A stretch of DNA of 55,416 nt, from the NCBI GenBank assembly GCA_015488555.1, contig WFNO01000093.1:1-55416 (forward strand), read 5' to 3'. Numbering within the stretch: the stretch's first letter is position 1; each line of letters begins with the position of its first letter. Both the position numbers and the translations under genes were made by a program. Positions 26,128 to 51,600 of this stretch are shown one piece after another. Source of the stretch: Gammaproteobacteria bacterium (lineage in GTDB: Bacteria; Pseudomonadota; Gammaproteobacteria; SZUA-140). The notes under the pieces are model-generated. The model was not told where the DNA came from. It worked only from the letters and a program-made list of their open reading frames with translations, and made no database searches.

Positions 26128-28275
26128 CTAGATTCCCAGCCGACTCAGAAACAATTGCCGCAGGCCGCGGTAGGCTTGCCAGGCCAGGGGCCGCGGCGCC
26201 TGGCGGAACAACACGTACACCCGTTCGCCCACCACGCCGGGCACAGTCGTTTCCGGCAGTTCCAGTTCGAACTGGAACAGGCGCTGCAGGGTGCGCAGCT
26301 CGCCGCCTGCTCCCTGGGCGGCGAAGGGACCACCTCCTTCCAGGGACAAGGCGGGACCAGGCAGGCGGTCCGTGGCCTCCGGCACCTCCCGCACCAGATA
26401 GGCGGGCCATACTTGATCCAGCCTCCGCGCCAGCCGGATCTCGATGGCCTGCGCATCGCGCGCCACTTCCACACCGTCCTGGTCCACCACCACACGGGCG
26501 ATGGGCGGCGCAGCGGTCTCCAGCACATAACCCAGGGCCTCGCCCTGGCGTACATGGCGTCCTGGCAGATCCTGGGGGCGGGCGAACACCAACACGCCAT
26601 CGGCGGGACTGCGGATGGCCCGTTCGGCCAGGCGCTCGGCCAGGCGCCCGGCCGCGGCCTCCAGGTGGCGCATCTCCTGGCGCGTGAGCTGGGCCTGCAC
26701 CCGGTCCTCGTAGCGCTGCTGATCGTAGCGCGCCCGCAGTTCGGCCAGTTGGGCCGCCATCACTTTGGCCTGGGCGGCCAGCTCCGGAGCCGTACAATGC
26801 AGCAACACCTGGCCGCGCGCCACCACCGTGCCGGACTCCACTACCACGCGCTCCAGCCGGCAATCCACGCCGGCCTGTACCTGCGCCCGTTCCGGAACCC
26901 AGAGCACGCCTTCGGCGCGTACGGCATAGGGCAGCGGCACCCAACCCAGCAGCAACACCAGCACGCCCACCACCACCCCGCTCATGGCGACGGCAAAACC
27001 TCGCCGGCCCTGCAACACCGGGCTGCGCGCCAGAAACAACAACTGGCGTCCCAGGGGCAACAACACTGTCAGGAAGACCGCCCACAAGGCCAGCAACAGA
27101 CCGAGGGTAAAATATTGCCCGGCGACGAACAGGGCGATGGCCAGCATCACCACCATGCGATAGATGAATGAGGCTATGGCATAACCCAGCAGCCAGGGCG
27201 CCTCGCCGCGGGCCGCCACCGGCGAGCGGGCCTTTTCGATCCGGAACAGATGGCGCTGAATGAGATATCCCACATATTGGTTGGCACGCTGGCCCAGATT
27301 GGGTATCTCCAGCCAGTCCGCCAGGATGTAGTAACCGTCGAATCGCAGCAGGGGATTGCCATTGAAGAGCAGGGTGGAGACCCCGGACACGAACAGGACG
27401 TTGAAGGCCAGGGCCCGCAGGGCCCCGGGTTCAGCCTGCAACCACACCAGCAAGGCCAGGGCGGCGATGAGCAGTTCCACCATCATGCCTGCCGCACCCA
27501 CCACAATACGCCGGCCCTTCTCTGGAAAGGCTGAGGCGGCGCTGGCGTCCACATAGGGTACCGGCATCAGTACCAGCAACATGATGCCCATCTCGTGCAC
27601 TTCGCCGCCCCAGCGCTTGACGGCGAGACCGTGCCCCAGCTCGTGGCAGGCCTTCACCACCACAAAGGCCAGGGTCAGCAGCCACAGGTTCTCCAGGGCG
27701 AGCACGCGGTCGCTGAGATTCTCCGTAAGCGCCGGCCAATGGGACAGGGCCGTCATCCCCCCCCAGCCCATCACCGCCAGCCACAGCAGAAAACCCGGCA
27801 GCGTGAACAGCGGGCGCGCCAGGGGTGCGAGTACGTCCAGCAAGCGGTCCGGATCCAGCAAGGGGATGCGCAGCGCCAGCGGATTCTTGAAATGCTGCAG
27901 GCGCTGGCGGCGGCGCTGGCGCCGCTGCCGCTCGACGATCTCCTCGGCCGGCACCAGGCCGTCGCTCAGCAGGAGATCGGCGCGATGCAGCTGGGTGAGC
28001 AGGCGAATCACCTCCTCCTGCGTGGGCGCATCGTCTCCCAGCCGTGACACCACCTCCTCCCAGACCTCCGCCAGGGTACGGCGGCCGTCCAGGAGCCCGA
28101 CGACGCTGTAGGCGGCGGGCGTGAAACGGTGGAAGCGACCGGAGACGGGATCCTGCACCACGTACCACAACTCGCCCCGATAGAAATGACGGTGGATGCG
28201 GGCATGCGGGCGCAGCCGCGGCCGCAATCGGGCCACGCGATACCAGGAAGGACTGAACAAGGATTCCTCAGCCAC
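26128..28275 (-). CDS. PqqD-like / M50 site-2 protease / HlyD fusion protein
   Basis: This inner-membrane protein has 715 residues. Residues about 27-105 look like a PqqD-type domain (YRGELWYVVQDPVSGRFHRF, then LLDGRRTLAEVWEEV), a fold that binds peptide leaders in RiPP systems. Residues about 165-460 are membrane helices with the M50 zinc motif HELGH (211-215) and the third ligand in NPLLRFDGYY (Asp313). Residues about 475-640 form a HlyD-type lipoyl/helical-hairpin region (ARGQVLLHCTAPELAAQAKV, then AIRSPADGVLVFA). The start is GTG at 28275, preceded by GAGGGG, with 15 bp after the GAF-HlyD gene. Active-site residues are complete, so it may cleave a substrate, but this type of protein may also act only as a membrane adaptor. 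Confidence 0.9.
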   Translation of the reverse strand: MAEESLFSPSWYRVARLRPRLRPHARIHRHFYRGELWYVVQDPVSGRFHRFTPAAYSVVGLLDGRRTLAEVWEEVVSRLGDDAPTQEEVIRLLTQLHRADLLLSDGLVPAEEIVERQRRQRRRQRLQHFKNPLALRIPLLDPDRLLDVLAPLARPLFTLPGFLLWLAVMGWGGMTALSHWPALTENLSDRVLALENLWLLTLAFVVVKACHELGHGLAVKRWGGEVHEMGIMLLVLMPVPYVDASAASAFPEKGRRIVVGAAGMMVELLIAALALLVWLQAEPGALRALAFNVLFVSGVSTLLFNGNPLLRFDGYYILADWLEIPNLGQRANQYVGYLIQRHLFRIEKARSPVAARGEAPWLLGYAIASFIYRMVVMLAIALFVAGQYFTLGLLLALWAVFLTVLLPLGRQLLFLARSPVLQGRRGFAVAMSGVVVGVLVLLLGWVPLPYAVRAEGVLWVPERAQVQAGVDCRLERVVVESGTVVARGQVLLHCTAPELAAQAKVMAAQLAELRARYDQQRYEDRVQAQLTRQEMRHLEAAAGRLAERLAERAIRSPADGVLVFARPQDLPGRHVRQGEALGYVLETAAPPIARVVVDQDGVEVARDAQAIEIRLARRLDQVWPAYLVREVPEATDRLPGPALSLEGGGPFAAQGAGGELRTLQRLFQFELELPETTVPGVVGERVYVLFRQAPRPLAWQAYRGLRQLFLSRLGI

Positions 28276-28290
28276 GCCCCTCGTTCTTCC

Positions 28291-30135: not shown

Positions 30136-30193
30136 GACCCGCGTGCGGCTGCAGTACCGTTGCCGTCAGGATGCGACTCCCTGTTCAACCCTG

Positions 30194-30227
30194 TTCAAAT
30201 TCGGGCTCAAATCGGGTTCAAATCGGG
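30194..30227. repeat. Three imperfect 11-12-bp direct repeats
   Basis: The unit TTCAAATCGGG occurs three times in a row with small changes, in the 108-bp gap between the DUF3467 gene and the GAF-HlyD gene. A further weak copy (GTTCAACCCT) lies just before. Its role is unknown. Confidence 0.6.
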
Positions 30228-30243
30228 CGCAAAGTGGCGGCCG

Positions 30244-30597
30244 TCAGTCCTTGCCGCCCCCATCCGTGCCGTCTCTGCCTCCGCCACCGGTACCGGCACC
30301 GATATCGATGGTACCGAAGCGCTGTTCGTATTCGGCGATCACGCCCTGCAACAGTAGCAACAGGCGCTTGGCGGCGTAGGGATTGAGAATGATGCGGTCG
30401 GACAACTCCACGGTCACCTCCTGCTGGTCACGGTTCCAGGTCTGATTGGTGCCGAACAGCAGGGTCACTTCCTCCCGCGTGCTGGCCACGTTGCACACGT
30501 TGGCATAGGTGCTCTTCATGTGGCTGCCGTCCCAGCGGATGCGGGGTGTGCCGCCGGCCGCACCGGTTCCTGCAGTGTCGCGATCACTCTTGGCCAT
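30244..30597 (-). CDS. DUF3467 family protein
   Basis: This 117-residue soluble protein carries the DUF3467 core: YANVCNVASTREEVTLLFG, then TVELSDRIILNPYAAKRLL. The C-terminus is a glycine-rich tail (about residues 98-117) and the first 15 residues are low complexity. The family function is not known to me. Placement between the giant RTX gene and the adaptors, in the same orientation, suggests a cytoplasmic helper for the secreted protein, such as a chaperone or assembly factor. That is inference. Confidence 0.82.
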   Translation of the reverse strand: MAKSDRDTAGTGAAGGTPRIRWDGSHMKSTYANVCNVASTREEVTLLFGTNQTWNRDQQEVTVELSDRIILNPYAAKRLLLLLQGVIAEYEQRFGTIDIGAGTGGGGRDGTDGGGKD

Positions 30598-30696
30598 AAC
30601 TGTCGTCCTCGTGATTGATGATGGAATTTCAACATACCCGTTGCTCGCCCCCGTTCCTCATCCGGCCACCCCTGTGGCACGCGAGTCCGGACGGCG

Positions 30697-33600
30697 TCAA
30701 AACGGGCGCTCCCGGTAATCACCGTACCAGTCCACGGTCACCGCCTGCGCGCCTCCCGTGGCACCCGCATCCTCCAGGACAATATAACGGTCACGGGCAT
30801 GCGCCCCATGAAGCGCGGGATCGTGGCAGGGGCGCAGCGCACCGCCGTCACACAGAAAGGCCCTGCGGCGGCGTGTCCGAATCCCCGCCTGAACACTACC
30901 GGCCGCCACAGCCAGTCCGGCCGCACCGGACAGGGCCCCGGCGGCCGAGGATTCCGTTTCCGGCGTTTCCGTTGCCGTGCCGGGCGTTTCCGCATCGGGT
31001 GCCAGGGCATCGGCCGGCAGGTTCAACTGCTGGCCCGGATGAATGAGCCCCGGATCGCCGAGCTGTGGATTGAGGCGCTGGATCTCCGGCCAGCGCAGGG
31101 GATCGCCCAACAGGCGTCCGGCGATGGACCACAGACTGTCTCCCGGCTGCACGCGATAATGCGGGTACACGGGCAGCACGAGCACCTCGCCCGGCAGGAT
31201 CAGATCGGGATCGCTCAGGCCCGGATTGAGGCGCTGGATCTCCGGCCACAGGAAACCATTGCCCAGTTCGCGCTCGGCGATGGACCACAGGTCGTCACCG
31301 GAACGCACTTGATAGCGAGTGGTGGCGGCAGGGGCCTTCGCCTCCGTATCCGCCGCCACGGCGGCAGGCCGCACCGCTGCAGCGGGCGCCCGCGTTTCCA
31401 CGGCCGGTGCCACCGCTGCCGCTTCCTCGCTCGCCCCCCGTTCGGAAAGCAGAACCGGCCGGACACCATGCGCCACGCTCCCCCGGTCATCGAAGACCAC
31501 AACCTGCACGGGCGCCTGCGCCAGCCGCAGCCCGCTCTGCAGCGCCAGGGTATCCACGGCCTCGATGGACACTTCAGCCACGTTGTACAGCGAGAACAGG
31601 GTGTTGCGCGTGAAATCCAGCGGGCCCTGGACCGGGGCGAGCACGGTGTCGATGCGCTCCCGGTCGCGGAAGTTGAGCTGGGCGTAATCCCCCACCAGGA
31701 TGTCCTCGTCCAGGTTGCCTCCCAACTGGTCGCGTCCGGCACCGCCCAGCAGGAAATCGTTGCCGGCACCACCCTCCAGCCGGTCATCTCCGCCGATGAA
31801 GAAATCGGTGGTCTCGGCACGAACCAGGACACCGGCCTGAAAGGACACTTGGCCGCCGTCGCCGATGAGCAGGTCGCGTCCGGCACCGCCGCGCAGTTCG
31901 TCGCCCGCGGCACCGCCCAGCAACACGTCGTCGCCCTCCTGGCCGTCCAGATCGTCCGCCCCGCCCTGCTCCGGTGCCTCGCTGGCCACCCGTTCCAGCA
32001 AGGCGCCATTACGGCGCAGCGTCCCATAGTCCCCCAGCACGGCATCGTCGCCGCCGCCGCCCCGGACGCGGTCCTCTCCCCGCCCGCCCAGGACGAAATC
32101 GTCGCCGCCACCGCTGTCGATGAAATCGTCTCCCCCGTCGCCGTCGGCGCCGGTGCGGGCCTCGATCCAATCCCCCTCCCGGGTCACTGTACCCCGATCG
32201 CCCAGGATCACGTCGGGACCGGCGCCGCTGGTGATGCGATCGGCGCCGGCACCGCCCAGCAGGATGTGGGCGCCGTCGCCGGCCAACAGGGTGTCGTCAT
32301 CCCCTAGATGCCCCTGGATGCGCGGCGCGGGCGCCGCTGCCGCGCCATCGTCCGGATTCTCCACCGGATTCTCCACTAGGACGACTTCACCCGCCGCATC
32401 GAAAATCACCACGCCGCCGCCGCCCAGCACCACACTGTTGCCGTCGCCGGTGGCCAGCGTGTCGCCGCCTTCACCGCCCAGCACCACGTTGTCGCCGTCA
32501 CCGGCGTCCACCGTATCGGCACCGCCGGCGGCGCTGGTGGTGCTGGAGACTGTTTCCAATACGCCGCTCCCGCGGTAGGCCACTTCGCCACTGTCACCCA
32601 GCACGATGTCCGATCCCGCACCCGCGGTGATGGTATCCCCGCCTTCACCGCCCAGCACCACGTCGTCGCCGGCACCGGCGTCGATGCGGTCCTCACCCCC
32701 CTCTTCTCCCGCGCTGCGCACCAGCGACACCGGACGCCGCACCCCGTCGCTGAAGTCACCGGGCCCGCCGCCACCCAGGCGGGCCGCAAGTTCTCCCGAG
32801 GCGTCGCGGTATATCACGCGCCCGCCATCGCCCAGGATCAGGTCGGCCCCGCTGCCGCCGGTGATGCGATCTCCGCCGGGGCCGCCGAAGAGTACCAGGG
32901 GCAGCGAGGAAGAACCGGCATCCACCACGTCGTCGCCGGCCTGGGTGTTAAGGACGAAGAAGCCGTCGCGCCCGGCGGCCAGGTCCACGGTCACCGCATC
33001 GTCGCCGGCGCCGGTGTTGAGGGTGCTGGTGGTGCGTACCCCATCGCGCTGGTGGCTGCCCTCCACGCGGATGCGATCGTCCCCGGCACCCGTCCACACG
33101 GTGATGCCGGCGGCGAAGTCGCCGCCGGGAGCGCTGTCGTAATAGATGCCGCCGGGGGCCAGCCCCGTGAGGGCGGTGGCCGTCCACACCACCGCGGTGT
33201 CACCCGCGGCGGCGGCCTCGTCGCTCACCATCAGCAGATGGCGGCCGTCACCGGCGCGCAGGATGAGATCCCCTTGCAGGGCATCCAGATCGCCACGCAG
33301 GAAATCGGTGGCCTCGTCCAGCCCCAGCGCCGCGCCCGAGGCCACGTAGATCCGTTCGTCGCCGGCGCCCAGGTCCAAGGTGGTGGCGGCGCTGGTGCCG
33401 CGCACGTTGATCACGTCGTCGCCGCCGCCGAGCAGGATCGCCAGCATCTCCAGGTCATCGTAGTCGACGCCGTTGAGCAGACCCAGGCCATCGATGGTGG
33501 CCTCCGTCAAGTGGAGCACCTCGGCCTCGTTCTCGGCCCGGTCGTCCAGTTGCAGGAAGTCCGTCCCCGCCTGCCCGGAGACCGTGAGGGGTGCATCCAG

Positions 33601-36600
33601 GGTGTCCACGGTACCGTCGTGACCCGCGAGCAGGAAACGGTCGTCGCCGGCGGGCACCGTGGCCCGGCCGTCCGCCACCAGCAGCCCCCAGATCTCGGCC
33701 CGGTAATCGTCGGGATCGAGAGTGGGGGCCAGTCCGATGTCGGGGACGGCGATGGGCAGCCGGTATTCCTCCACCAGGCGCTGTGCCAGGACCCGGACGT
33801 CGGCCACCGAGGCCGGGTCGAAATCGCGGCCCAGTCCCAGCACCGCGCCCGCCTCCGGCAGATAGTCGGTGTACCGGGCGCCGTCGGGAATGGTGTTGTA
33901 GGCTTCCTTGAGCAGGGTCCAGATCTGATCGGGATAGGCGTTGACGGCAGCGTCCAGGGCCTCGAAATCGCCGCTGGTGTCGATGGCGATGTCGGGGAAG
34001 CGCGCGTTCAGGCGCTGCGCCAGGGCGCGCAGGTGCTCCACGTCCGCGGGATCGAAGGCACCGCCCAGCCCCAGCAGTTCCCCGGTGCGCTCCAGTTCCT
34101 CCCCATAGGAACCGGCATCCGCCAGCAGATTGGCGTTGGCGCGTACCAGCGCCATGAGGTGTTCGTTGTAAGCCGCCACATCGAAATTCAGTTCGAGTCG
34201 GATGGCATCCACGTCGATGTCGGTGCCCGCCTCGGCGTTGAGGCGTTGCGCCAGGGCACGCAAGTGATCCAGGTCCTCGGGATCGAAGTCACCGCCGAGG
34301 CCCAGCAGCCCGCCCAGTTCCGGCAGATAGCCCCGGAAGTCCTCGCTGTAGTCGGGCTGGGTGTCGCCGTACAGTTCCAGGGGACCGCTGGCATCGTGTA
34401 CCTGCAGGGTGTCGTCTCCCCCGCCGCCATAGACGCGGGTCACGGCGCGGGCGGCGGTGTCCTCGACGGTGAACAGATCCGCAGCGCCGCCCAGGTAGAG
34501 ATCCACGGCGGTGAAGTTTTCGTAGAACAGGCCGAAGCCGCTGCCCAGCCCCGCCACGGTGTCGTAGTTCTTGGTGTTCTTCACGTCCTTGCCCAGCACG
34601 TACCCGCCGGGAATCTCCAACGCCACGTCCACGGTGCTGTAGACCCGCACCTCGCCGGTGTCGGGATCCATCACCACCCGGCTCTCGGTGGCCGGCAGCG
34701 CGTCCAGTTCGGCGATGAGGCGGTCGCGCGCCGCCGAGGGCTCCAGATTGTCCGCCAGATGGGCCGCCAGTGCATCGGGCGCCTCCGGCAGCACCACCGC
34801 CGGCCCGCCCAGTTCGTCCACCAGGGCGGCGCCGTCGAGCAGGTTCACCAGAGTGCCGGCGGGCAAGGTCAAGTCGCGCGTCGCATCGTCGCCGAGGGCC
34901 AGCAACTCGTCGGCGAAACCGGGGCGGCGGATCTCGTGGAGATTGGCGATGAGGCGGGCGAGGGAGGCGTCCGTGACCGCCTCGTCCATCCAGGCCGGCA
35001 GTTGATCCGCGATGCGCGCCGCATCGGTGGTGACCTTGACGATCTCCACTCGTTGCTTGCGCAGGGCGTCGGCGGCGGTGGCGGCGCCGGCGCTGTTGTC
35101 GACGACGAGCCGGTCGCCGCCCGCCGCGCTGTTGGCCGAGCCGTTCACGATCACCGGCCCCTGGATGCCCGCCAGGCTGCGGGTCTCGGGCACCTGCACC
35201 GGCAGGGGGTATTCGGGCACCGTGACCACCACCGGCAGCACCTTGTCGGGCTGTGGGATCTCCACCAGGCGGGTGGTGTACACCGCCGGGCGTTCGATGC
35301 GCTCGAAATAGGGATAGAGCCGCACCGGTGCGCCCAGGAAAGGCAGGTATTCCACCACCCAGCGCTGCTCGTACCAGACGACGGCCGGGGAGACGAGCAC
35401 GGTCTGCTCCTCGATCAGCGGCGGCTGGGGAATGCGGACCTGCTTGGTGTACTTGGATTCGGGGATGACGACCTCGAAGTCCAGGGGGCCGCCGCCCACC
35501 TGCACGGTGTCGTCGCCGGTGCCGGTGTCGATGCTGATCTCCTGGTCCGCCAGGGTCCCGTAGAGATAGACCGTGTCGTCGCCGCCGCCGGTGATGATGA
35601 GCAGGCGCTCGATGCTCTCGATCGTGGGTACGACGAGTCCGGCCCCGTAGATGCGCTGCACCTCGCGGCCGTCCACCTCTTCGACGAAGATCACGAAGGT
35701 GTCGTCGATCTCGGTGCCGACGATGGCCAGGGTGTCGAACCCGGCGCCGCCGAAGATGTTGACGGGGGCGTTCTTGAGATAGGCCAGGGTGTCCTGTTCA
35801 CCTTCCTCGCTGTAGACGTTGATCTCGTCGCTGGGAGCGAGATTGCCGCTGTCACCGGCCTCCAGCACCAGGTGGGCCTTGAGATAGAACGTGTCGTCGT
35901 CCTCCTCTCCGTAGAGCGAGATCTCCGCCAGATTGCGGTTGACCTCGAAATAGTCGTCGCCGGTACCGCCGTAGAAAGTCGCCGGGAAAGAGACCCCGTT
36001 GGTGATCTCCTTGACGACCTCGATGAGGCCGTACTTGGGATGGTCGTACAGTTCGGTGGCCAGCACGTTGCCGATGAAGAAGCGGTCGTCGCCGCCGTCG
36101 CCGTATACCGCTAGTTCCGTGCTGCTGTCGTCCACCAGGAACAGGTCGTCGCCGGCGCGCCCGCGCACCGTGAACCGCTCGGTGGTGAGATAGTTGACCT
36201 GCTGGCGGAAGATGTCGTCGTCGATGCGGGTGTCGCGGATCACGATCTCGGTGCTGAAGTCGGTCACCGGGCTGAACAGGGGTGAATCGGGACTCAGGCC
36301 CTCGCGGGGCGTGATGCGTTCCACGATGTCGCGGCGGAAGCTGAAGGTGTCGCGCTCCGCCGTGCCCCACACGGTGAGGCTGTCCAGGCCGTAGGGCCCG
36401 CGGTCGCGCACATCGATGAGGGAATCGATCTCCTGCTGCTCGGTGCCGCTCAGGGTGATGTCGTAGACATCGCCGGCGTCGCCGCCGTCGAGGTAGGCGG
36501 TGGCCGTGAAGTCACGCACCGTGAAGCGGTTGACGCTGGCGATGGCGGCCTCCTCGCCGCCGGCCCCGGCGGTGTCCGCGGCGGCCAGCTCCACCACCTC

Positions 36601-39600
36601 GAACAGCCCCCCGAGATCCTCGTCCTCCGCGCCCAGCACCTCGCGGCGCATCTCGCCCTCGCCACTCACCTGAGCCGGCGCCAGGGGGCTCACGATCAAC
36701 TGCCGGTCGCTGAGGTAGAAGTCGGCGTCGCGCAGTTCCCACAGGGTGTCGCGGCCGCCGGCGTCGGCGAACACGTCCACGCCGGCGCCGCCGCTGATCA
36801 CATCGTCCCCCAGGCCGCCGTCGATGTAGTCCACGAAGGGCGATCCCGTGAGGCGGTCGTCCCCTGCCCCGCCATAGAGTCGGAGCACCGCCAGCAGCTC
36901 CGCCCGGACCCCGTCCGCGGCCACCTCGTCATCCCCCTCCAGGGTCTCGATGATCAGTGCGTCGTCGCCGCGGTTGCTGTTGGTGATACTGAAGCTCAGG
37001 CCTCCCTCCTGGAACACCAGCAGGGTCTCACCGTCGTCGCTGGCGACGAGGAAGCGGTCGTCGCCGGCGCTGCCCGCGATCTCCAGCACGTCGGGCTGGG
37101 AATCCAGGCCGTACTCGGGAGTGACGAAGACATCGAAGAGCGGTTCGCCGGTGGCCTCGTCCACCGCCTGGACGGGATTGCCGTCGGCGTCCAGGCGCAC
37201 CTGGCCGCCGGCGTCCATGGCCCATACCGGCAGCTCCACCTGGCGGGAACGCTGCTGGATGCGGGTCTCGTAGTCCTCCAGATCGTAACCGGTATCCTCG
37301 GGGTCCACGCCCTCGCGTACCTGGACGAGCACGCCGCCCACCTCCACCAGCAGCGGCGTACCGTCCGGGTTGTAGCGATAGACCGCCTCCCCGTCGCCGC
37401 CCACCTGGCGCTTGAAGACCTGGCCGCGAAGCTGGTCATCTGCGTAAGGATCGGACGCAGCGAAGACCCGCTGGCGCTCCACGATCACCACTTCGTTGCG
37501 GGTCTCGAAGTCTTCCAGGGTGTAGCCGTCGTCGTCCGCGGCCACACCCTCGCGTGGCTGCAGCCAGTAGCCGGGAGAACCATCGGCGGGCGTCACCCGC
37601 ACCAGGCTGGGCGAGCCGTCGTCCTCGTAGAGATAAACCGCGGCGCCGCCACCCGTCTGGCGCTTGAAGGTCTGGGCGGCCTGCTGTTCGGTGCGCACCC
37701 GGGTTTCGGCATCATATTGGCTGGGCCGCGGGGTGGTGGCGGCGAACACGTCCCGGCGGCCGTCGCCGTCCTCGTCCACCGGGGTGACCGACGCCTGCAC
37801 GGACTCCATCACCGGCACCGACTCCAGGATCTCGCCGGTACCGTAATCCACGTCGATGCGCGCCAGGTCCGTGCCCCGCAGGTCCTCCACCCGCATGCGG
37901 TCGCCGCCTTCGCCCAGATCCACCGACAATCGCTCCACGCCGCCGATGACCAGGGCCGCATCGTTGAACCGCAAGGCCAGGCGGCCGTCCTCGCGGGCGC
38001 TTGCGGTGACCCGGTCGGCGCTGCGCTCGGCGGCGGCGCGCAGCTCCAGCGTGTCCTGGGCCTCGCCGTCGCCGCCCGCCACGGTATCGCCGCCGTCGCC
38101 GGCCAGCCACTGGATGACGTCGCTGTCCGCTCCGCCGAAGATGCGGTCCGCGCCGGCGCCGCCCACCAGCAGGTCGTCGCCGGCGTCGCCGTAGAGTGTG
38201 TCGTCCTGGCCCTCGCCGTAGATCAGGTCGCGGCCGCCGCCGCCATGGAGTTCGTCGCGGCCGGTGCCGCCGAAGAGCTGATCCCGGCCGCCGCTCGCGG
38301 CATCGCCCACCAGGTCGCCCCAGGCGGTGTCGCTGCCGGCGCCGCCCAGGAGGATGTCGTTCCCCAGGCCGCCCACGAGGAGATCGCCCCCGCTGCCGCC
38401 GTCCAGGTAATCGCTGCCGGCGCCGCCGCGCAATTCGTCGGCGCCACCCTTGCCGGCGAGCTGGTCGTTGCCGGCACCGCCGTCGATGAGATCGGCGCCC
38501 TCGCCGCCCGTGAGGATGTCGTCGCCGGCATCGCCGTAGAGTTCGCGGGTGAAACCCGCCGCGCTGGAGGCCACGCTGATGATGTCGTTGCCGGCGCCGC
38601 CGCGGATCACCAGATCGGCGGCGAGATCGGGGCCGATGTTGTAGCTGTCGTCGAAGTCCGTACCCGGCGCCACGATGCGGCTCACCAGGGCGGGATCGAA
38701 ATACTGGGTATAGCCGTTGCCGGTGACGGCGATGCGCGGCACCGTCGCCGGATCGCCGTCGTTGGGATCCAGGTCCACGTCCTTGAGCTTGACGCTGTAG
38801 CGCTCCGCCTGGTCGCCGGGCCGGGCGCTGCCGGCGGGATCGTAGGCCAGGGTCAGGGTGCCGCCGTCCAGGGTGGCCACCACCGGCGGCTCAGGATCGG
38901 GACAGGCCAGCTCGAAGCTGGCCAGCACTTCGTCCACGAAGCGCTGGCGGGCCTCGTAGAGGGTCACCGTGCCCACCAGCGGCACCTTCACCCCGGTCCA
39001 GAGGAAGGCCTCCAGGAAGGCGCGCAGATCGCCGCGCATGTCGAACAGGCATTCCGGTCCCTGATCGAGGCGGGTGAGGATCTCATCGATGCGCAGTTTG
39101 CCGTCGTAGACGGGGTCCACACCGGTGTTGCCGCCGGTGCCCTCGTCGGGCAGGTCGTGGAGATCGAGACCGATGCCGGCCTGCACGCCGCCCTCCACCC
39201 CGGCCTCCACCAGGCCGCCCACCCCCACCGAGGCGCCGGCGCCGATGCCGAAGCCCACGGTCACCTCGTCCTTGTCGAAGCCGAAGGCGTCCAGGTCGTT
39301 GAGATAGAAACCCTCGAAGATCCGGTCCAGGCCGCCGGCGGAGAAATTCTCCTCCTCCGCCCAGGCGCGCAGCCCCGTGGTATCGAAACCGAAGGACAGG
39401 TCGGTGGCCGCCTGCAGGGTGCCGCTCAGGCGGGCGTTGAGGCCGGGGAACACGGGATAACTCTGGCTGTAACCGAAACGGACGTCGAAATCGGGCAGAT
39501 CGTAGACGAACAGGTCCGTGTCCCGTCCCAGGAGCAGGGACAGCACGGCGGCGGGGCTGGTGAGGATGGGAAACTGGATGCTGCCGGGCTCGGTGCCGAT

Positions 39601-42600
39601 CTCCTTCACCAGCCGGTTGCTCTTGGGCTTGCCGCTGGTCTTGCCGTCCAGGTCCGGTGCGGCATTGGCAGCCACGTCTTCCGCGCGCACCGGCGTGCTG
39701 CGGGCCTCCAGCAGGCCGCGGCCCACGGTGAAGTCACCGAAATCGATCAGCACCCCGTCTTCGCTCCGGGCGTCCTCCACCAGGCCGACGAAATCGGAGA
39801 AACTTTTGATGGCGTCGATGGCCTGCTCCATGGCCTGGAACTGGGCCGGCGGCAGGCGCAGGCGCGCCAGGTCCAGGAGACGCAGCTCGGCCACGCCCAG
39901 GTCCACCTCCAGGGTCAGCAGATCGACAGCCTGGCGCACCAGGGTGTCGGGGCCGATGATGCCTCCCACCTCGTCCACGATGGGTGCCATGAAGCCACCG
40001 ATGACATCGCCCAGATCCAGGGTCACGTCCTCAAACACCACGTCCGGCGCGCCACCCACCTCGAAGGCGGAACCGCCCCCGCTGCGGTAGACCACGTTCA
40101 GGAAGTTCTGGTCGTAACGCAACACGGCCTCGATGCGGGGCAGGGCAATGTCGGCCGCGGCGATGTCCACGGTGACGCCCAGGTCGATGTTGGCCCCGGC
40201 GCTCAGCCCCGCCACCGCCGCCAGGGATTCCCGCCCGGCGCTCCAGCGGCCGTCACCACCGCCGTCCTGCAGGTCCAGGCTGATGGTGCCGGACAGGCCG
40301 CTGGGCCCGTCGCCGTCGTCCAGCTCCCGCAATTGGGCCTCGAGAAAGCCCAGTTGCGCGGTGAAGGCCGCTCCCGGAGTCAGTTCGGCCGCGAGATCCA
40401 GGCGGAATTCCTCGCCGCCCCGGGTGACGCCGGTGGTGTCCAGGAAGACACCGGCGCCGGCATCGAAACCGAATCCCAGGCCGAAGACATAATCGAGAGT
40501 GAAATCGATGGCGCTGGCATCGCTGCTCTTCAGCCCCAGTCCCGGGGCGCTGGCCTCGAAACTCAGCGGGATGCGTTCATCGAAGATGTTGTCCGCGACG
40601 AGCACGTTGAACTGGATGGTGCCGCCTGACACCGTGAACTGGATGTCATCGGGTCCCGTCACGGCACGATACAAGGGCTCGCCCCGGGCGTCGAACAGGG
40701 GCCGGCCGCCGGCATCGGTCTCCGGTACCTGCAACAGGTCGCCGATGCCCTCGTAGAGCGCGGTGCGCACCAGGTCGATGATGCGCTCCGAGGTGGACTG
40801 GCCGTTGCGATAGGCATCGAAGAGGGTCGCTCCCAGGCCACCGCTGGCATAGCGGCTGTCGGCGCTGTCGAGGTCGAAGACACCCCCGGACATGCCCGCG
40901 GAGAGATCCGCGATACCCAGCACCCCGGCGCGCAGGGTTTCGTCCACGAAAGCGGCGGCCTCTTCCAGTTTGTCCCCCACCAGGGGCAGGCCCATCTGCG
41001 CGAAACGCGACGACAGCCCGGCCTGGATGCCGCTGAACATGTCCTCCAGTCCGATCAGCACCCGGCCGGGATCGTCGATGAGCGCGAAGAGGTCGAAGGC
41101 CGGTAGCAGCGCGGGCACCGCGCGCTGGACGTCGCTCAGACCGTTTTCATCGAAGTCGAGCCGCAGCGCCAGGGCGTTGTCGGCCACCCCGTCGTTGTCG
41201 AGATCCGCCGTACTGCCGCCCAGGGGCAGGTTTTCCAGGGGAAAGTACAACGGCAGCGTCAGCTCCGCACCGCCGCTGACGTCGAGCACCAGTTGATCGG
41301 CGAACTCCGCCAGCGCATAGCGGTTGTCATCGTCACCGTCCCCGGCGAGACCGGCGCGCGCGGCGAGGTTCAAACGGCCCTCGCCGCCGGCGGCGAACAG
41401 GCCCACCTCGATGCGCTCGCCGTCGTCCAGGGGATTGGGAATGCCGATGGCCGTCTTGAAGGACAAGGGCCCCTGGTTGGCGATGTCGAGGGAGAATTCC
41501 AGGCCGCTGTCGTCATCGAACAACAGGGACGGATTCCGGACATCGCTCAGGTCGAAGGTGACGCCGAAGTCCAGCGCCGCAGAGGCGGCGACATCGATGC
41601 GGGCCTCGCTCCCCACCGCCAGGTCCAGGGGCAGGCTGTCGTACTCGTCCAGATAGGCGCCCAGATCCACGGCCAGATCCAGCCGGCTCTCGAAATCGGC
41701 CGCCAGGGACAGGTCGAAGACGAAGCTGGAATCCTCGTATTTCAACACCACCGGATCGGCCGCATCCTCGGACAGGCCCAGCAGGTCCTTGAGTTTCTGG
41801 TTCACCGCGGCCTCGAACCCACCCAGGTCCGTCGCCGCGGCACGCGCTTCCTTGAAGATACTGCGCAGGAGCGTGATGAAATCGGTATTCAACCGATCTT
41901 CGCCCACCACCATCTCGGGGGGTTGCGCCTGATTCTCGAAAATGACCCGCCACGGATCGTCCGGGCTGCCCTGGCCGCCCACCACCCGGGCGTCGGACCA
42001 GAGTTCCTGCAGCGCGGCCTCCAGGGCGGCGCCATCGGCATCGAAGGACACTTCCACCGCATCCGTACCATTCCCCAGGGTGAACACCCCGCCCGAGCCG
42101 TTGTGCCAGATCTCAAGCCCGGCCCGACTCGCGGGGCTGCCGCCGTCGTCGTAGTCGATGGTGGCGCGGTTCAGCGACACCGTGGCCCCTTCCGTAGCCA
42201 GGAGCTGGGCGACGCTGCGCTCCACCAGGGGCATGCGCTTGTAGATCAGACCCTGCTCGTCGGCCGCCGTCTCGGGATCGTCCAGGGGGCGGCCGGCCAG
42301 CTCGTCCAGGCCGTATTCGATGACGTCGAGCAGGTCCTCCAGGGAGAAACCGTTGAAGCGCATGAGATCGCCGAGATTGCCGCTGGTGGGAAACAGGGAG
42401 GAGAGCTGCAACAAGAGCTGCGCGAAATCCCCGGGCGCGGGCAGACCCAGATCGGCGCCGGCATAGAGTTCCACCGGACGAAACTCCAGCCCGGACAGCG
42501 GGGTGCTCAGATTCAGCGGCAGGCGCACCGCGAAACCGGTATCGGGACCGAGTCCGCGCAGCACCGCATCGGCAGGCAGCGAAGCGCTGAAATCGGTGAA

Positions 42601-45600
42601 CCGCCCCTGGAGTCCCATGAAGGCACCGCTGGTGAACCCCAGCACGGCGTCGTCCAGGTCGAGACGCAGGGGACCGAGAGCGACCGAACCCGAGAAAGTG
42701 TTCCAGATCCTGCCGTCACCGGCATCGGCGGCGATCTCCCGATCCACGGTGATCACGGACCGGTCGGCCAGGGCGTCGTAGGCGATCGCCGTGATCTCGT
42801 AGAGGCCGTTGTTGCCGCCGGAACCGGACAGCCAGAAGCGCTCGCCCACCGCGAATTGCCGGCCCGCGTCGCCGGCGACGGTGAAGCGGTCCCCCTGGTG
42901 TTCGGCGCCGGCGATGGCCACCCGGGTCCCGTCGGCCGCCACGGCCTCGCCCAGCGAGCCGCTCTGGCGCTGCAGATCGTTGCGCACCCACAGGGTGGTG
43001 CGGTCCGCCATGGAATCGTATTCCACGCGGTCCACGATGTAGCCCCCGTCGTTGTCCGCCGAACCCTCGATGGTCATGTATTCGCCGGCCTGGAACGACG
43101 CCGACCGGTCGCCCGCCAGATACAGGGCCTGCCCCGCCTGTTCCACGGCCAGTACCGGCAAGGGGGCCTCGCCCAGGCGGAGATCCACCCGCACGCCGGG
43201 ATCCACGGCGAAGAAAGCGCCCGCTTCGAGGCCGAACTCGAAATCGAGGCTGAGGCCGGCGCTCAAGACCAGCTCCGGCAGCTCGCCCCGCAGGCCGAAG
43301 GCACCGAGATCCAGCCCCGAGCCCAGGAAGCTGTCCGGCAGCTGGATACGGCCGGGATCGAGGGTGACGAGGCGCTGGAAGCTGCCCAGCTCCAGGCGGG
43401 CCTGATAGCGCGTGCCGGTGCTGTCCAGGATCTTCACGCCGAGTCCGGCCAGGGCGGCCTCATCGACCTCGTTGCTGTCGCTGGGAAAGAGACCGGCGAT
43501 CGCAGCCACTCGGTCACGGATTTCACCGGCCACGGCATCCTGCTCGATTCCCAGCCACTGGCCCACCGTCTGAGCGGTGAAGGGCAGGGTCTGATCGAAC
43601 AGATCGGCGATCTCCCCCGCGAAACCGTCCGCCAGCCAGCCCTGGAAACCGCCCTCCAGCCCCTGCCGCAGCAGCCCGGCATCGCCCTCCTGCAGGGTCA
43701 GGGCCGCGCCCGCGACCGGCAGCCCGTCCAGCGGGCCGTCGAAACCCGCGGGCAGGAGGCGCACCCCCGGCGCCAGGCCGGCCTCCATCAGGCCGCTGCC
43801 GTGCCCCAGCCCCAGGGCATGGCCGATTTCGTGCATGGCCACGGTGAGCAGGTCGATGCGCCCGGCCGCCGGCCCGGCCGGATCCGCCCGCAGGCTGCCG
43901 TCCGCCCGGCGCACGAACTCCTCGTCCTGCACCGGCGTGGGATCGATGAACCAGCCGACGCCGGCCGCCGTGGCATCGATGGTGATGACCTGACGTCCCG
44001 TCTGGCCACCAATCTGGCCCAGGGCATCGCCCGGCAGATCCGCGACGCCGAAGCGGTAACCTTCCAGGAAGGGCTCACCGTCCCGTGCCGGCAGCGCCGC
44101 CAGCCAGCGTTGCAGGGCTGCCGCCGCCGCGGCCCGCAGCTCGGTCTCCGTCAGCGTCTCGACCGCCCCGGCCGCGCGGACCTCGTCGGCGGCACGCAAC
44201 AGATAGGGGGTGATGGGCAGCGGCGAGAACAGGGCCTCCCAACTGCTCTCGCGGTCCGTTTCCTGCCGCATCTCCACGCCATTCTTCCCCGCAATGTCCC
44301 CGGTGGAGAGCGTCACGCTGCTGGCAGGGTCGTTCTCGTCGCCGACCCAGAAGAAGTCGTCCTTACCGTCGCCGTTGGTATCCTTCGACTGCACCGCCTC
44401 CGTGACGGCGGAGAAGTCCAGCACGTCGTTGCCACCACCGGTCACCACCACGTCCTGGCCCCAGTCGTCGGCGAAGAAGAAGATGTTGTCGCCGCCGTCG
44501 CCCACCAGCAGGTCGTCGCCGTCGCCGCCGGCGAGGTTCTGGATGTTGCTCAGGAAAGCGGCATCGTCCGGAATGTCGGGCAGGGCGCCATTGGCGGGCG
44601 GGATGAAGCCGTCACCCGCCAGCCACGACCGGCCGTCCGCCAGGGAGATCACCACCCCTTGGCTGGCACCCTCATAGCTCACGGTATTGCCGCTGCCGCC
44701 GTAGACCGCGACGCCGGCGGCATCGCCGCCTCCATCGACCACGTCCCTGCCACCGGCGGTGAGCACGAAGGTGTTGTCCTTGACTGCGCTGCCCGTCAGT
44801 TCGTCGTCGCCGAGACTGCCGGCGACCGTGGTGACGTTGGTGACCGCCAGGGACGCGGTGGGCAGCGCCCAGCCGAACCATTCGTCGAGCACGCTCTCCA
44901 GCCCTCCCAGGCGATTGCCCAACACCCCCTCGGCGGTACCGTAATCGGCCACGATGCTGGGCGTGGCGAAGAGCCCGTCGAGCACCTCGGCCGAAGGCAG
45001 CAGCACCTCCTCCCACACCCCCAGATCGGTGCGCACCCCCGCGGAGGCGGGTGGCGCCGTGTCGAAGAACTCGCTGTAGTCGAGGACGATCTCGCCGCCG
45101 GCGGTGGTGCTGAGCGTCCCCTGGAGGCGGGCGCCGTTGACGAAGCGCACGGTGTTGGTCCCCTCGCCGCCGATGATGTTCTCGATGTCGTTGGCGACGA
45201 GATAATTGAGCCCCTTGCCGAAGGGGGCCAGCGGCGGCCGGGTCTTGTCGTCCAGCAGGGTGTCGGTGACGATGACGATGTTGGTGCCCACGTCGATGCC
45301 GTGACTGACGCGCACATTGTCCGCGCTGCGGTCGCCGAAGCCGAGGAACAGGTCGCGGAAGGTCTGCACGTTCTCCGTGGTGACCTCGAAGATGGTGATG
45401 TCGAGATCGGTCTGCACCCCCGACAGGTCCAGGGTGTCGTAGCCCTCGGGAAAGGCGGCCCCGCCCAGGATCAGGTCGGGCGTCTCCAGAATCGCCGCCA
45501 GCCCCCAGACACCCTCGAAGCGGTAGGTGTCGGCCCCGCCCTTGCCCAGCAGCAGGTGCAGCCCCGGCGCCACCGTGGGCAGACGTTCCACCACCAGGCG

Positions 45601-48600
45601 GTTGGCGAACTTGGTGACGGCGTTCTTCTCGCCCTTCACGCCGGCGCCATCGAACAGGGTCTCCAGCGGATTGCCGCCCACGCTGAAATAGTTGCGGGCA
45701 GTCACGAGATTGCCCAGCAAGCCCTGGCTCATGGCCTTGGCCGTTTCCCCCGCCTGGCCCCGCAGGCTGTCGGCGCTGAAGCCCTGGGGCGGCCGCAGGC
45801 CGCCGGCACCCTCGCCCAGCAGCAGGTTCAGGCCCGCGCCGTATTCGATGGCGGTCATGTTCTCGATGGCACCGTCGAACTGGGGCAGAGCAGGCCCGCT
45901 GCCGAAGCCGCCCAGGAAGGAATCGCCCAGATTGGCGAAGTTGGCCAGGCCGCCGAGGGTGCGCTTGGGCTTGAGCAGATCGAACAGGCCCGTATAGTCC
46001 AGGGTGTTGACCACCGTGGCGCTGGGAAACTGGAAATTGATGGCGTCCTGGGGCTTGGCCAGGGTCGATGCCAGCACCTCCAGGGGGTTACGCAGTCCGG
46101 TGCTGCCGATGAGCTTGCCGGCAAAGCGGGTGCCGGCGTCGATGGCGAAGGTGTTCACGTCCCCGCCGCCATAGATCACCGTGTTGGCATCCACCCGGGT
46201 GAAAGTGAGCTTGGCGAACTCCCGCTCGGGGAAGATCAGTTTGCCGATCACCTCGGCCACGTCGCCGAACTCGCTCACATCCTCGATGAGGGAAGGCCCG
46301 GCGATGCGGCTCACCGTGAGCGTGGTGGCCTTGGTCTTGTCGTCCGTGGCGAATTCGAACTTCAGGGGCTGGCTGACATTGCGGAAATCGAGCACCAGTT
46401 TGTGGGGCGCCACATAGGTGGCCGCTTGCGGGTTCAAGGACAGGTCGCCGGCCGCCGTGTCCAGGACCGCGAGCCGCTGCCCCGCGGCCCTCAGCTCCTC
46501 CACGGCCCCGGCGACATCGCCGCGCACCAGCAGGGTGTCCTGCGTGTCGTCCCAGCCGGTAATGGTGATCAGTCCGCCGGGGTTGTAGAGAAAACCGCCG
46601 GCCTTGGGCTTGCTCACCTTGTCTTTGCTGCCCGCCACGTTCTGCTTGAGGGTGAGCCAGGTCTGGTCCTTGGCGGCGTCGTAGCGCACCGTGTCGATGG
46701 TGTAGGACCCGTCGTTGGCGCCGCCCGCGGAAGCCGTGACCACCACCTTGTCGCCGCTCTGGTAGGCATCGCGACGGTCGCCGGCGACCACGAACGCGGA
46801 CTTCGAGGTGGCCGCCAGCAGGGCATCGGCACGGGCCAGGGCCAGGCCGCCGCCGGCGGCGCCGGCCGGCAGGCCCTCTTCCAATGTCAGCGTCGTGTCG
46901 GTACCGTCCGAGGTGCTGTCCGCCACCGTGTAGAGGCCGTCCTTGCCGCCGGCGGTGATGACGAGGCGGGTGCCGGCTGCGAATTCGCCGGCGCGGTTGC
47001 CCGCGATGGTGACCGTATCGCCGCCGGCATCGGCGCCCACCACGGCATAGGCCGCGTTCAGCTTGGCGGCGCCGAAGTCGTCGTCCAGGGCCTCGGCCAC
47101 CGTGACCCAGGTGGTGTCGGTCGCGTCGTCAAAGCGCACCGCCTCGAAGGTCAGCGCCTGCCCGGCAGCGCCGGTCTCGACCGTGAGCGCGACGCCCGCC
47201 TTGAAAAAGGCGGTCTGGTCACCGTCGAGTTTCAGCAGGTCGTGACCGCGGTCGAAATCCCCCGTGCTCAGCGTGCGCTGCAGCATGGTGGCATTTCCCA
47301 CGGCGCTCTTGTCCGCATCATCCAGCTTGGCCACCTCGATGTCGTAGCCGACGCTGGTGTCTTTGACTTTCTTCGCCACCAGCTCGACGCCTTTGAGGGT
47401 GAACGCCTGGCCGGCCTCGAGCACCTGACCCAGCCGCGCGGCCCCCTCGATGCTGATTCGGTCCGTGTCCTCGTCGATTTCCGTGACCTTGATGTCGTCG
47501 AGCGCAAATTCCAGGGTGAAGGCCATGGCCTGGATGTCGCTGTCCAGGGCCTCGATCACCGTCAGGCTGGTCAGTCCGCGATCTTCATCATAGGTCAGTT
47601 CTTCGATCTGGAATGCCCGCGTGGAAGACGAGCTGCCCTGATCCAGGGTGAAGGTCAGGGATTCACCGGCATTCACCAGCCCCCTGAGATCCCAGCGCAG
47701 GCGCACCTGGTCATGGCCCGCGTCCTGGCCGGCCAGGGTCAGATCGAAGACCAGCTCGCCGGAGTTCAGGGCCGGATCCAGGGCCTCGGCCACCTCGATG
47801 CGGGTCACGTCGTTGCGCCGCGGATCCAGCATGGTGCTGGTGTCGATCTCCAGCGCGCGGTCGGTATTGTTCCAGGCGGTCACCACGTCGGGCTCCCGCG
47901 CGGCGAACTTCTTCAATCCCCAGTCGTTGCCGAAGACGAAGGTATTGTCGGCGTCCGAGGCCACGATGCGCTCGATGTTCGCCAGCCCCGTCGGGGCCTG
48001 GCCTTCGCGCACGGTGGTCACCTCGGCGGCGGGATCGGCACCGGTCAGGCCGTCGGTGATCACCTGGATCTCGCCGATGTCCCGCTTGTCGGGACGGTCG
48101 AAGGCGATCTCGAAGGTCCCGGCATCGACGACCCCCACCGTCACGTCATAGGCGGCCCGGAAGCGCGCCAGCGGGCCGTCTCCGCGCAGGGACTCCAGGG
48201 CCTGCCGGATATTGGCGGCGGTGGCATCGTCATCGGCGGCGTCATAGGCAATGGCCGCGGTCTGCCGGCCCTCCAGCACCAGTTTGAAGTCGCCGCCGTC
48301 GGTGCCCGTGAAGCGGATCCGCTGCACCTCGTTGATGGCGGCTCCCTGGGTCAGGGTGCTCACCCTGGCGGCCGGCACGGCATCGTTACCGTCGCGCAGC
48401 TTCGAGGCGTCGATGCCCAAGGTCTCGACATCGGTGAAGGCGGGGCGCCGGAAGAGCACGTCGAAGGCATTGAGTTCGCTGCCGGCGGGCGAGACCTCCA
48501 CCGCCCCCGGCCCCAACGACGGTAATGCGTTCAAGGCAGCGGCGATATCGGCCGCCGTCTGATCGGGATCACGGTCCAGGTTGATGTCGCCCGTGACCTC

Positions 48601-51600
48601 GGAGACCGTACCCCCCTCCCGGGAGACGTAAGTGAGTTTGAAGCTGCCGCTGACCGCCTCGCCCAGGTGGATGCGTTGCACTTCATTCTGGTTGTCGATG
48701 CGCTCCACGGCCAGGCGGTCGCTGCCGCCCACTTCGCCCGACACCCGGCCACGGGCATACTCGAAGAAACCATCGGGCGGGTCGTAGTCCGCCAGGGTCT
48801 GACCCACCTGCAGTTCGCCGCGGTCGAATACATAGAACAGGGGCTGGCCCACGGCGGAAAAGTCCAGGGTGTCCCGGCCGCCGCCCCGTGATTCGAACAC
48901 GCGGTCCTGGCCCCAGCCGCCGGCGAAGCGGTAGGTGTCATCGCCCGCGCCGCCCCGGAGCAGGTCGTCACCGGCGCCGCCGTCCAGCAGGTCGTCGCCC
49001 TTGCCTCCCTGCAGGGTGTCGTCACCGGCCTCGCCGAACAACTGGTCGTCACCGGCACCGCCGTCGAGGATCTCCCGCCCCTGGCCCGCGTTGTCGCCGC
49101 CATACAAGACGTCGTTGCCGCCACCCCCGTCGAGGCGGTCGCTGCCACCGTCACCGTACAAGACGTCGTCACCGGCACCGCCCTGCAGCGCGTCCGCCGC
49201 CGCCCCCCCGTCGAGGCGGTCGGCACCGGGACCGCCGTTCAACTGCACGGCCTGCGCGAGCAGATCGGAGACAGCGACGACCTCGTCGGCCCGGCTGCCC
49301 ACGATGCGGTCGATGCCCCTGAAACCGCCCTCGATAGCCGGCGCCCGGTTGTCTGTGGATCCATCGCCGTACGCATCCAGCGCAGCGATCTGCAGGGACT
49401 GGAACAGATCCGGTGTGTCGTAATCCGAATAATCGAGGGTGTTGCGCTTGCCCGCGGATTGCTTCGACCGGTCGATGTCGATGGTGCCCGCGATGGCGCC
49501 TCCCCGCAGAAACTCGAAGGTGTTGTCGCCCTGGCCGCCCTTGATCAGGCGGACGTTCTCCGCCCGGATCTCCAGTTCGCTGACGAGGTCGAGATCGCCG
49601 CCGGCCGGCGGCAGGGCGAAGACCCGCAGCCGGTTGTCGGGACCGACCTCGAAACGCAGGTCGCGGGTCACGGCGGAGAAATCCAGGGTGAATGCAGCGG
49701 TGGCGCTGAAGGCGGTGGCCTCACCCTGTTCGTCCACCGCCTCGATGGTCAGGACGCGGCGGCTGCCCGTGCCTTCCAGGTCGAGCCCCCAGTCGTTGCC
49801 GAAGGACAGGGTATACTGGCGCAACAGGACCGGATCGTGAAGCAGGCGGATCTTCTCCACATAGGCGGCGCTGATCTGGTCGTTGCCGGCAGTCAGCAGG
49901 ATACCGCCACTGTTGCTGGCCTCGATTTCGATCTCGATGTCGGCATCGACCCGGCTCAGGTCCAGCACATCCGTGCCGCCGCCGGCCGCCTCCACCACGA
50001 AGTCCTGGCCCCAGCCGCCGGCAAAGACATAGGTGTCGTTGTCGCGGCCGCCCTCCAGGATATCGTCGCCGGTGCCCCCTTCCAGGACATCGTCTCCCCG
50101 GTCGCCATACAGGCGGGTGTCGGCGGCGGCGGAACCCGTGATCCGATCGTCACCCTGGCCGCCGCGGAGTTCCCGGTCGCCGCCGCCGGCCTGCAGCGTG
50201 TCGTCGTTGAGCCCGCCCACGAAGCGCTGGATATTGGCGAAATCCGGCGCGGCGCCGTCGTTCACCGCCGTGGCGGTGCCGGCATCGACGTCCACCACGA
50301 CGCGCCCGCCGAAACCGCCGCCCACGTCGGGCGTGTCGGGCAGCGCGGAATAGCTGAGGGTATTGAATCCGCCGCCACCGTCGATGGTCCCCGACAGGCT
50401 CCCCGGACTCTCCAGGATGAACCTGTCGTCGCCGCCGCCGCCTTTCAGGGCCGCGATGCCGCTGGCCACGAACGTCCTGTCCCCCGCCTCCAGCCGCACC
50501 TCGTTCTGGCCGATGACCGTGAAGGTGATCGCTCCTCCGAAGCCACTCAGATCCAGGGTGTTGGTGCCCTTGCCGCCCAGGATTTGCGCCACCGGCACCT
50601 CGGCATTCACCGTCACGCGGTTGCCGTTGGCGTCCGAGACCACGAGCCGACCGTCGTTCTGCAGGGCGATGCTCAGGTCGGCGCCGACTTTCTTGAAGTC
50701 CAGCACATTGGCACCGGCGCTGTCGGTGTGAACGACGTCATCGCCCCAGTCGTCCTCGAACTCGTAGCGGTCGTCGCCGCCCTCGCCACGCAGGATGTCG
50801 TCACCCCCCAGGCCCTTGAGCACGTCGTTGCCGCCCAGGCCGGTGAGGGTGTCGTTCTGCGGCGTTCCCTCCAGCACCTCACCGCCGGGATTCTGGGCCG
50901 TGACCGCTGCCAGCAGAAAACCATAGTCACTGGCCTCGATGAAGGGATTGGCGGTCTCGATGACGCCGGTGCTTCGCTCCAGCACCCAGTCACCACCGGC
51001 GGCCGTGCCGCCGGTGGCGTCGTCGGAAGCGGCCACGTCCGCCCCGGTCAGCCCGGCCAGGGACTCGATGAACTGCAGGCCCGCTTCGCCCGCCGCCACG
51101 TCGCAGCCATACAGCAGCAGGTCGCCCTGCGGCCCCAGGGCCTGGCCCCAGCCCCGCAGGCGCTCCCCGTACTGGCCCAGGGAGTTGGCGTTGAGCTGGG
51201 CCGTGCCCAGGCGCAGGGCGCCGCTGCTGCCGTGGGAGAGGATGTGCACCGCCGCCAGGTTCTCGTACCGGGCCAGCACTTCGCCGATCTGGTCCACGCC
51301 GTCGCGCGCCGCATCCAGTACCACGATGTGCACCCCGCCCAATGCTAGCTCCGGACCCGACGCCGTTGCAGAATTCATTGTCGGATTCTTGGCCGGATCC
51401 TGAGCCGAATCCGCCACGTCTTGTCCGGCGGGCAAGGCAGGCAGCCCAATCAATATCTGGGTCAATGGTTGCGCAGGCGATGGCAGCAGCGGGGACGCCA
51501 CTTCCTCGGCCGCAAGCGCTTGTATGTCGGTTTCACCGGTGCGGGGCGAATCCTCTTCCCCGGCCGCCTGCAGCACGCCGCTGCGCGCGAGGATCTCGCG

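Follow-up and report, generated by a model that had tools for sequence, protein, structure and literature searches.

We found that a gammaproteobacterial operon encodes a membrane protein in which an N-terminal PqqD/RRE fold is joined to an M50 protease core, membrane helices and a periplasmic HlyD adaptor, an architecture confirmed by our analysis, and that across genomes this fusion is linked almost exclusively to giant proteins bearing a short N-terminal tag. We lean towards the view that the fusion is the recognition and processing subunit of a dedicated, ABC-free and TolC-linked export route for giant LExR-tagged surface proteins. The DNA analyzed, referred to here as the window, is a stretch of 55,416 nucleotides (positions 1 to 55,416, forward strand, of contig WFNO01000093.1) from Gammaproteobacteria bacterium (GTDB SZUA-140; assembly GCA_015488555.1). 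Its same-strand operon comprises the genes for TolC, the giant protein, a DUF3467 protein, a GAF-HlyD protein, the PqqD-M50-HlyD fusion, a truncated SecA-like ATPase and an RND-type adaptor (Table 1). The GTG start of the fusion gene is credible because homologues start at the same residue. Promoter and terminator scans of positions 28200-30800 gave no informative signal. Positions 1-23300 carry ordinary genes on the opposite (+) strand: rnfCDG, metA, urease alpha and a urea ABC transporter (UrtB and two ABC ATPases).

Table 1. Coordinates in the window of the operon products and of the sites discussed in the text.
Feature	Coordinates	Strand	Basis or remark
RND/MFP-type periplasmic adaptor, 246 aa	23359..24099	-	TIGR01730 above cutoff
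SecA-like ATPase, 666 aa	24124..26124	-	aligns to SecA residues about 28-603
PqqD-M50-HlyD fusion protein, 715 aa	26128..28275	-	GTG start
Periplasmic HlyD/MFP adaptor part, fusion residues 447-713	26137..26937	-	Pfam, model, Foldseek
Asp 313 of NPLLRFDGY, third zinc ligand	27337..27339	-	invariant, 81/81
HELGH zinc motif, fusion residues 211-215	27631..27645	-	H, E, H invariant, 81/81
PqqD/RRE-type domain, bbb-aaa, fusion residues 26-98	27982..28200	-	Pfam, profile, AlphaFold2, Foldseek
GAF-HlyD protein, 614 aa	28291..30135	-	Pfam; kept in related loci
DUF3467 small protein, 117 aa, between giant and GAF-HlyD	30244..30597	-	conserved there
Giant LEPR-XLL/DUF4347/RTX/LysM protein, 7,211 aa, predicted substrate	30697..52332	-	domain searches
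C-terminal VDW motif of giant, candidate second signal, exploratory	30700..30735	-	motif comparison
LEPR-XLL tag LIFEALEQRLLLSAD, residues 31-52 of giant	52177..52242	-	NF012209, E 7.3e-9 and 7.7e-10
TolC-family outer-membrane protein, 445 aa	52513..53850	-	TIGR01844 E 8e-94, above cutoff

Domain searches of the fusion matched Pfam PqqD at residues 38-102 (E 3.5e-6, above the gathering score), Peptidase_M50 at residues 201-295 (score 21.2, below the gathering score of 27.2) and HlyD_D23 at residues 462-563 (also below its gathering score). The best NCBIfam match was the daptide protease family daptide_HExxH (NF041824; residues 19-405, E 4e-48), at 164 bits against a family cutoff of 300. The fusion to PqqD is itself not new, since some members in public plasmid records are already annotated as PqqD family. 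When 59 relatives of residues 1-112 were combined into a profile, it matched only three chains in the whole PDB up to an E-value of 10, all of them PqqD or PqqCD, with 3G2B as the best (E 0.0047). In the AlphaFold2 model (mean pLDDT 82.7 for the whole fusion and 87.2 for the N-terminal domain) residues 26-98 form three strands and three helices, and Foldseek placed the PqqD structure 5SXY first (probability 1.00, E 0.004); the hits after it include the RREs of lasso-peptide and sactipeptide pathways, several of which were crystallized with leader peptides. The Foldseek E-values are modest, in line with a length of some 75 residues; probability, order of elements and sequence profile are concordant, and the N-terminus thus shows both the bbb-aaa fold and the sequence profile of a PqqD/RRE domain.

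The protease core and the adaptor were similarly well defined. H211, E212, H215, N305, P308 and D313 were identical in all 81 fusion sequences compared, and the HExxH and NPxxxxD zinc site lies within predicted membrane helices, as is characteristic of peptidase family M50. Family-averaged hydropathy and the helices of the model predict about seven membrane segments, which would leave the N-terminus and its PqqD domain in the cytoplasm and the HlyD part in the periplasm; the HExxH and Asp sites are predicted to lie towards the cytoplasmic side. Foldseek matched the HlyD part to adaptors of the MacA/MexA/EmrA type (best E 1e-10), and this part combines barrel-sandwich, alpha-hairpin and beta-barrel elements in a location that is periplasmic by predicted topology. 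The first-pass annotation of this DNA had proposed a PqqD-type domain, an intact HELGH motif with its third-ligand Asp, and an export-adaptor arm, and these results bear out all three.

We found at least 535 relatives of the fusion in a scan of GTDB genomes. The best 80 loci came from Pseudomonadota, Desulfobacterota, Nitrospirota, Omnitrophota and others, and among them GAF-HlyD was present in 78/80 and the SecA-like gene in 71/80; five of the nine loci lacking the latter lie at contig ends, and for three of the remaining four the genome encodes a SecA-like protein at another site. A DUF3467 gene between giant and GAF-HlyD was also seen in 29/80 related loci. The DUF3467 protein is possibly a chaperone of the giant; a PDB search with it returned no useful relative. 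We rejected an ordinary type I system as an explanation of the fusion locus, because none of the best 80 loci had an ABC ATPase within 4.5 kb of its fusion gene and no exporter of the LssB type, the T1SS ABC family that was searched, scored above cutoff in the source genome.

The alignment of the SecA-like protein to Bacillus SecA stops at residue about 603-606, so that it is without the C-terminal domains of SecA, which in SecA contact SecY. Its nucleotide-binding residues are near-invariant among relatives. The protein is not a SecA2 by the measures used: all curated SecA2 cutoffs were missed, and the SecY-contacting C-terminal domains are absent.

The fusions split into two classes: class I scores high and includes the source locus, and class II scores low. 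Loci of class II contain a giant, an outer-membrane efflux protein (OEP lipoprotein-like in loci L171-L186), an RND-type adaptor, a shorter HlyD protein and the M50-HlyD protein. They are without the SecA-like gene and show no visible energy source, which counts against our main reading, as does the lack of a Pfam PqqD match in class II N-terminal domains. The ten class II-only genomes searched held canonical SecA only, and we therefore rejected the idea that the SecA-like protein is indispensable to the module. In one genome (G216, locus L180) a class I-like fusion without any SecA-like gene adjoins a giant whose tag, LEPRLLFSA, is intermediate, and this locus may connect the two classes.

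The giant protein of the window carries LEPR-XLL, DUF4347, RTX repeats, an M10-like zinc site and two LysM domains. The zinc site is of the M10/matrixin type (HEIGHALGLGH, 43795-43863, minus strand), and the giant itself may therefore carry a protease domain. At its N-terminus the LEPR-XLL model NF012209 scored 34.9 bits against a cutoff of 17. Among 40 class I N-termini, [LF]x[LF]E-x-LEPRxLLSAD comes after a basic stretch and conservation drops sharply past SAD, in an alignment whose members were picked by a pattern over the core, so that independent evidence comes from the flanking positions only. The natural reading of this pattern would be recognition up to SAD and then a cut. Class II giants start with a variant tag, LExRxxFDGAA. 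Motifs were also seen at the other end of these proteins: [IVM]xW occurs at the C-terminus of 19/41 class I giants (loci L031-L110) against 1.9 expected, and [FL]xxQ[LIVF] near the end of most class II examples inspected (loci L171-L186), both motifs having been spotted by eye and then counted on those same sequences. DUF3467 has an N-terminal tail, P-x-[IV]-x-W-D-D, that is similar to the class I C-terminal motif.

The strongest support for a partnership between fusion and giant comes from their co-occurrence. Of 397 Pseudomonadota genomes, 84 had the fusion and 39 had LEPR-XLL (detected by NF012209). The fusion occurred in every LEPR-positive genome, compared to 45 of the 358 LEPR-negative ones (Fisher P-value 8e-31; the genomes are not phylogenetically independent, which counts against our main reading, and LEPR-XLL occurs in 26/232 genera). 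In 23/39 LEPR-positive genomes a giant is encoded no more than 30 kb from the fusion gene, and most of the others are on separate contigs. In the reverse direction, LEPR-XLL was found in 41/46 further class I genomes reached via their fusion loci. Furthermore, the class II tag was found in 43 of the 45 genomes with the fusion and without LEPR-XLL (41 of them with E at or below 0.01) and in none of 20 fusion-free genomes, a small control, using a profile made from five tags of class II loci, some of them in genomes then searched; in 30 of these 43 genomes the tag-bearing giant adjoins the fusion. Taken together, 82/84 fusion-bearing genomes have a giant with one or the other tag. The tagged giant is thus well supported by comparative genomics as the natural partner of the fusion, in agreement with the first-pass annotation, which had suggested the giant LEPR-XLL protein in this role. 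Co-occurrence speaks for partnership and not for which domain binds what, and this too counts against our main reading. Several LEPR-XLL giants per genome were seen in G067, G441, G072, G481 and G486; in G067 and G441 they outnumber the fusion genes found, and one machine may therefore serve giants encoded elsewhere.

Because the fusion nearly always accompanies tagged giants in this survey, it probably reads, and perhaps cuts, their N-terminal tag during export. In the mechanism that we propose, the cytoplasmic PqqD/RRE domain would bind the class I tag [LF]x[LF]E-x-LEPRxLLSAD or the class II tag LExRxxFDGAA, and the M50 site, facing the same cytoplasmic side, would cut at or just after it. 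The giant would then cross a periplasmic conduit formed by the HlyD domains of the fusion and of GAF-HlyD, the RND-type adaptor and TolC. In class I, the source locus included, the truncated SecA-like ATPase would give at least part of the energy. The direction of transport, which we infer as part of the same scheme, is where the C-terminal motifs of the giants count against it, since common motifs at that end are what C-terminus-first export would lead one to expect.

The main rival builds on this point. We regard it as unlikely while giving it appreciable weight: the giant would leave with its C-terminus leading, as type I substrates do, its LExR tag would remain last inside, held by PqqD, with the giant anchored at the surface, and upon a signal sensed by GAF-HlyD the M50 site would cut the tag and free the giant, in the manner of LapA/LapG with a different protease. 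The C-terminal motifs of both classes, the GAF domain of the class I partner and the RTX repeats of the giant are consistent with such retention and release. However, motors of the SecA type usually thread their substrates starting at the N-terminal side, the system offers no retention module to point to, and the motifs are those found by eye and counted on the same sequences. Retention and release, and recognition during export as we propose it, both predict that PqqD binds the tag; they differ on when and why the M50 site cuts.

It is also conceivable, if improbable, that the M50 part serves mainly as an inner-membrane pore in place of an ABC transporter, as proposed by Kamneva et al. (PMC4452313), with proteolysis incidental or directed at a target other than the giant. 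The lack of an ABC gene in the locus and the approximately seven predicted membrane segments fit this proposal, whereas HExxH and Asp, which a mere pore would not need, are invariant in both class I and class II. Such a pore may also exist together with either tag recognition during export or retention and release. Finally, we rejected as very improbable the reading that PqqD-M50 matures a small RiPP-like peptide encoded nearby beside which the giant is a mere neighbour, because, although a daptide protease family is the best NCBIfam match, the score is far below its cutoff, the epipeptide cutoffs were missed as well, and the giant is a near-constant partner in the genomes surveyed.

The first-pass annotation had read the fusion as a protein for recognition, processing and hand-over, an interpretation that our results support in part. 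Its account of the domains and of the partner stands, and tag binding, cleavage of the giant and hand-over are putative steps; what it missed was the wider module (SecA-like ATPase, GAF-HlyD, DUF3467, RND-type adaptor and TolC) and a possible hold-and-release role of the tag. More tentatively than the export role itself, and with somewhat less than even confidence, we suggest that a general secretion system has taken on a recognition domain of the RiPP type as its receptor for substrates. An N-terminal code, LExRxLLSAD or LExRxxFDGAA, would be read by a PqqD-M50-HlyD protein that processes giants in ABC-free TolC-linked export, with power from a truncated SecA in class I and from a source not encoded in the locus in class II. 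If true, LEPR-XLL giants, among the largest bacterial proteins, would gain a named export machine and their LEPR tag an explanation, the orphan SecA_DEAD module of 2015 would gain a substrate, and RiPP-type leader recognition would act on proteins of thousands of residues. That the tag predicts the machine would then be a simple genomic rule, and one testable in ordinary laboratory strains, of which Methylobacterium extorquens AM1 has the locus.

The system is a known but uncharacterized module. Kamneva, Poudel and Ward (PLoS One 2015; PMC4452313) described a locus of SecA_DEAD, M50-HlyD, GAF-HlyD and HlyD genes and proposed SecA_DEAD as the source of energy and M50 as the pore; they named no substrate and mentioned neither PqqD nor LEPR. 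The source locus matches their module in GAF-HlyD, M50-HlyD, a SecA_DEAD protein without the wing-scaffold part (SecA_SW) beside these genes, HlyD genes and the lack of an ABC transporter; OEP/TolC is found in some of their loci, and TolC is present here. Our analysis contributes a substrate tag and the PqqD domain, along with DUF3467 and the SecA-free class II. In later literature on the 2015 module we found no follow-up on the locus, and in the literature searched no description of an export route for LEPR-XLL proteins; LEPR-XLL is scarce there, with one paper reporting an 8,000-aa Vibrio protein. The daptide and epipeptide M50 proteases (MpaP, NF041824; YydH/LiaK/EpeP) share the M50 core, and the NF041824 alignment includes the PqqD region, but the fusion falls below their family cutoffs, adds an HlyD adaptor and has a giant rather than a small peptide as partner. 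The epipeptide M50 protein EpeP is thought to cleave and export (PMC10885120), a precedent for our main reading. RRE/PqqD domains of RiPP pathways are alike in their bbb-aaa fold and expected leader-peptide binding, whereas here the domain is fused to a membrane protease and an adaptor and its partner has thousands of residues. Type I secretion (HlyB-HlyD-TolC) likewise uses HlyD/MFP adaptors, TolC and RTX substrates; in contrast, the fusion locus has TolC without an ABC transporter ATPase, and the tag of its substrate is N-terminal. The LapA/LapG/LapD system resembles the fusion system in its giant RTX adhesin, TolC and regulated proteolysis near the N-terminus. LapG, however, is a periplasmic cysteine protease, whereas the fusion system has an M50 protease, a PqqD domain and no ABC gene in its locus.
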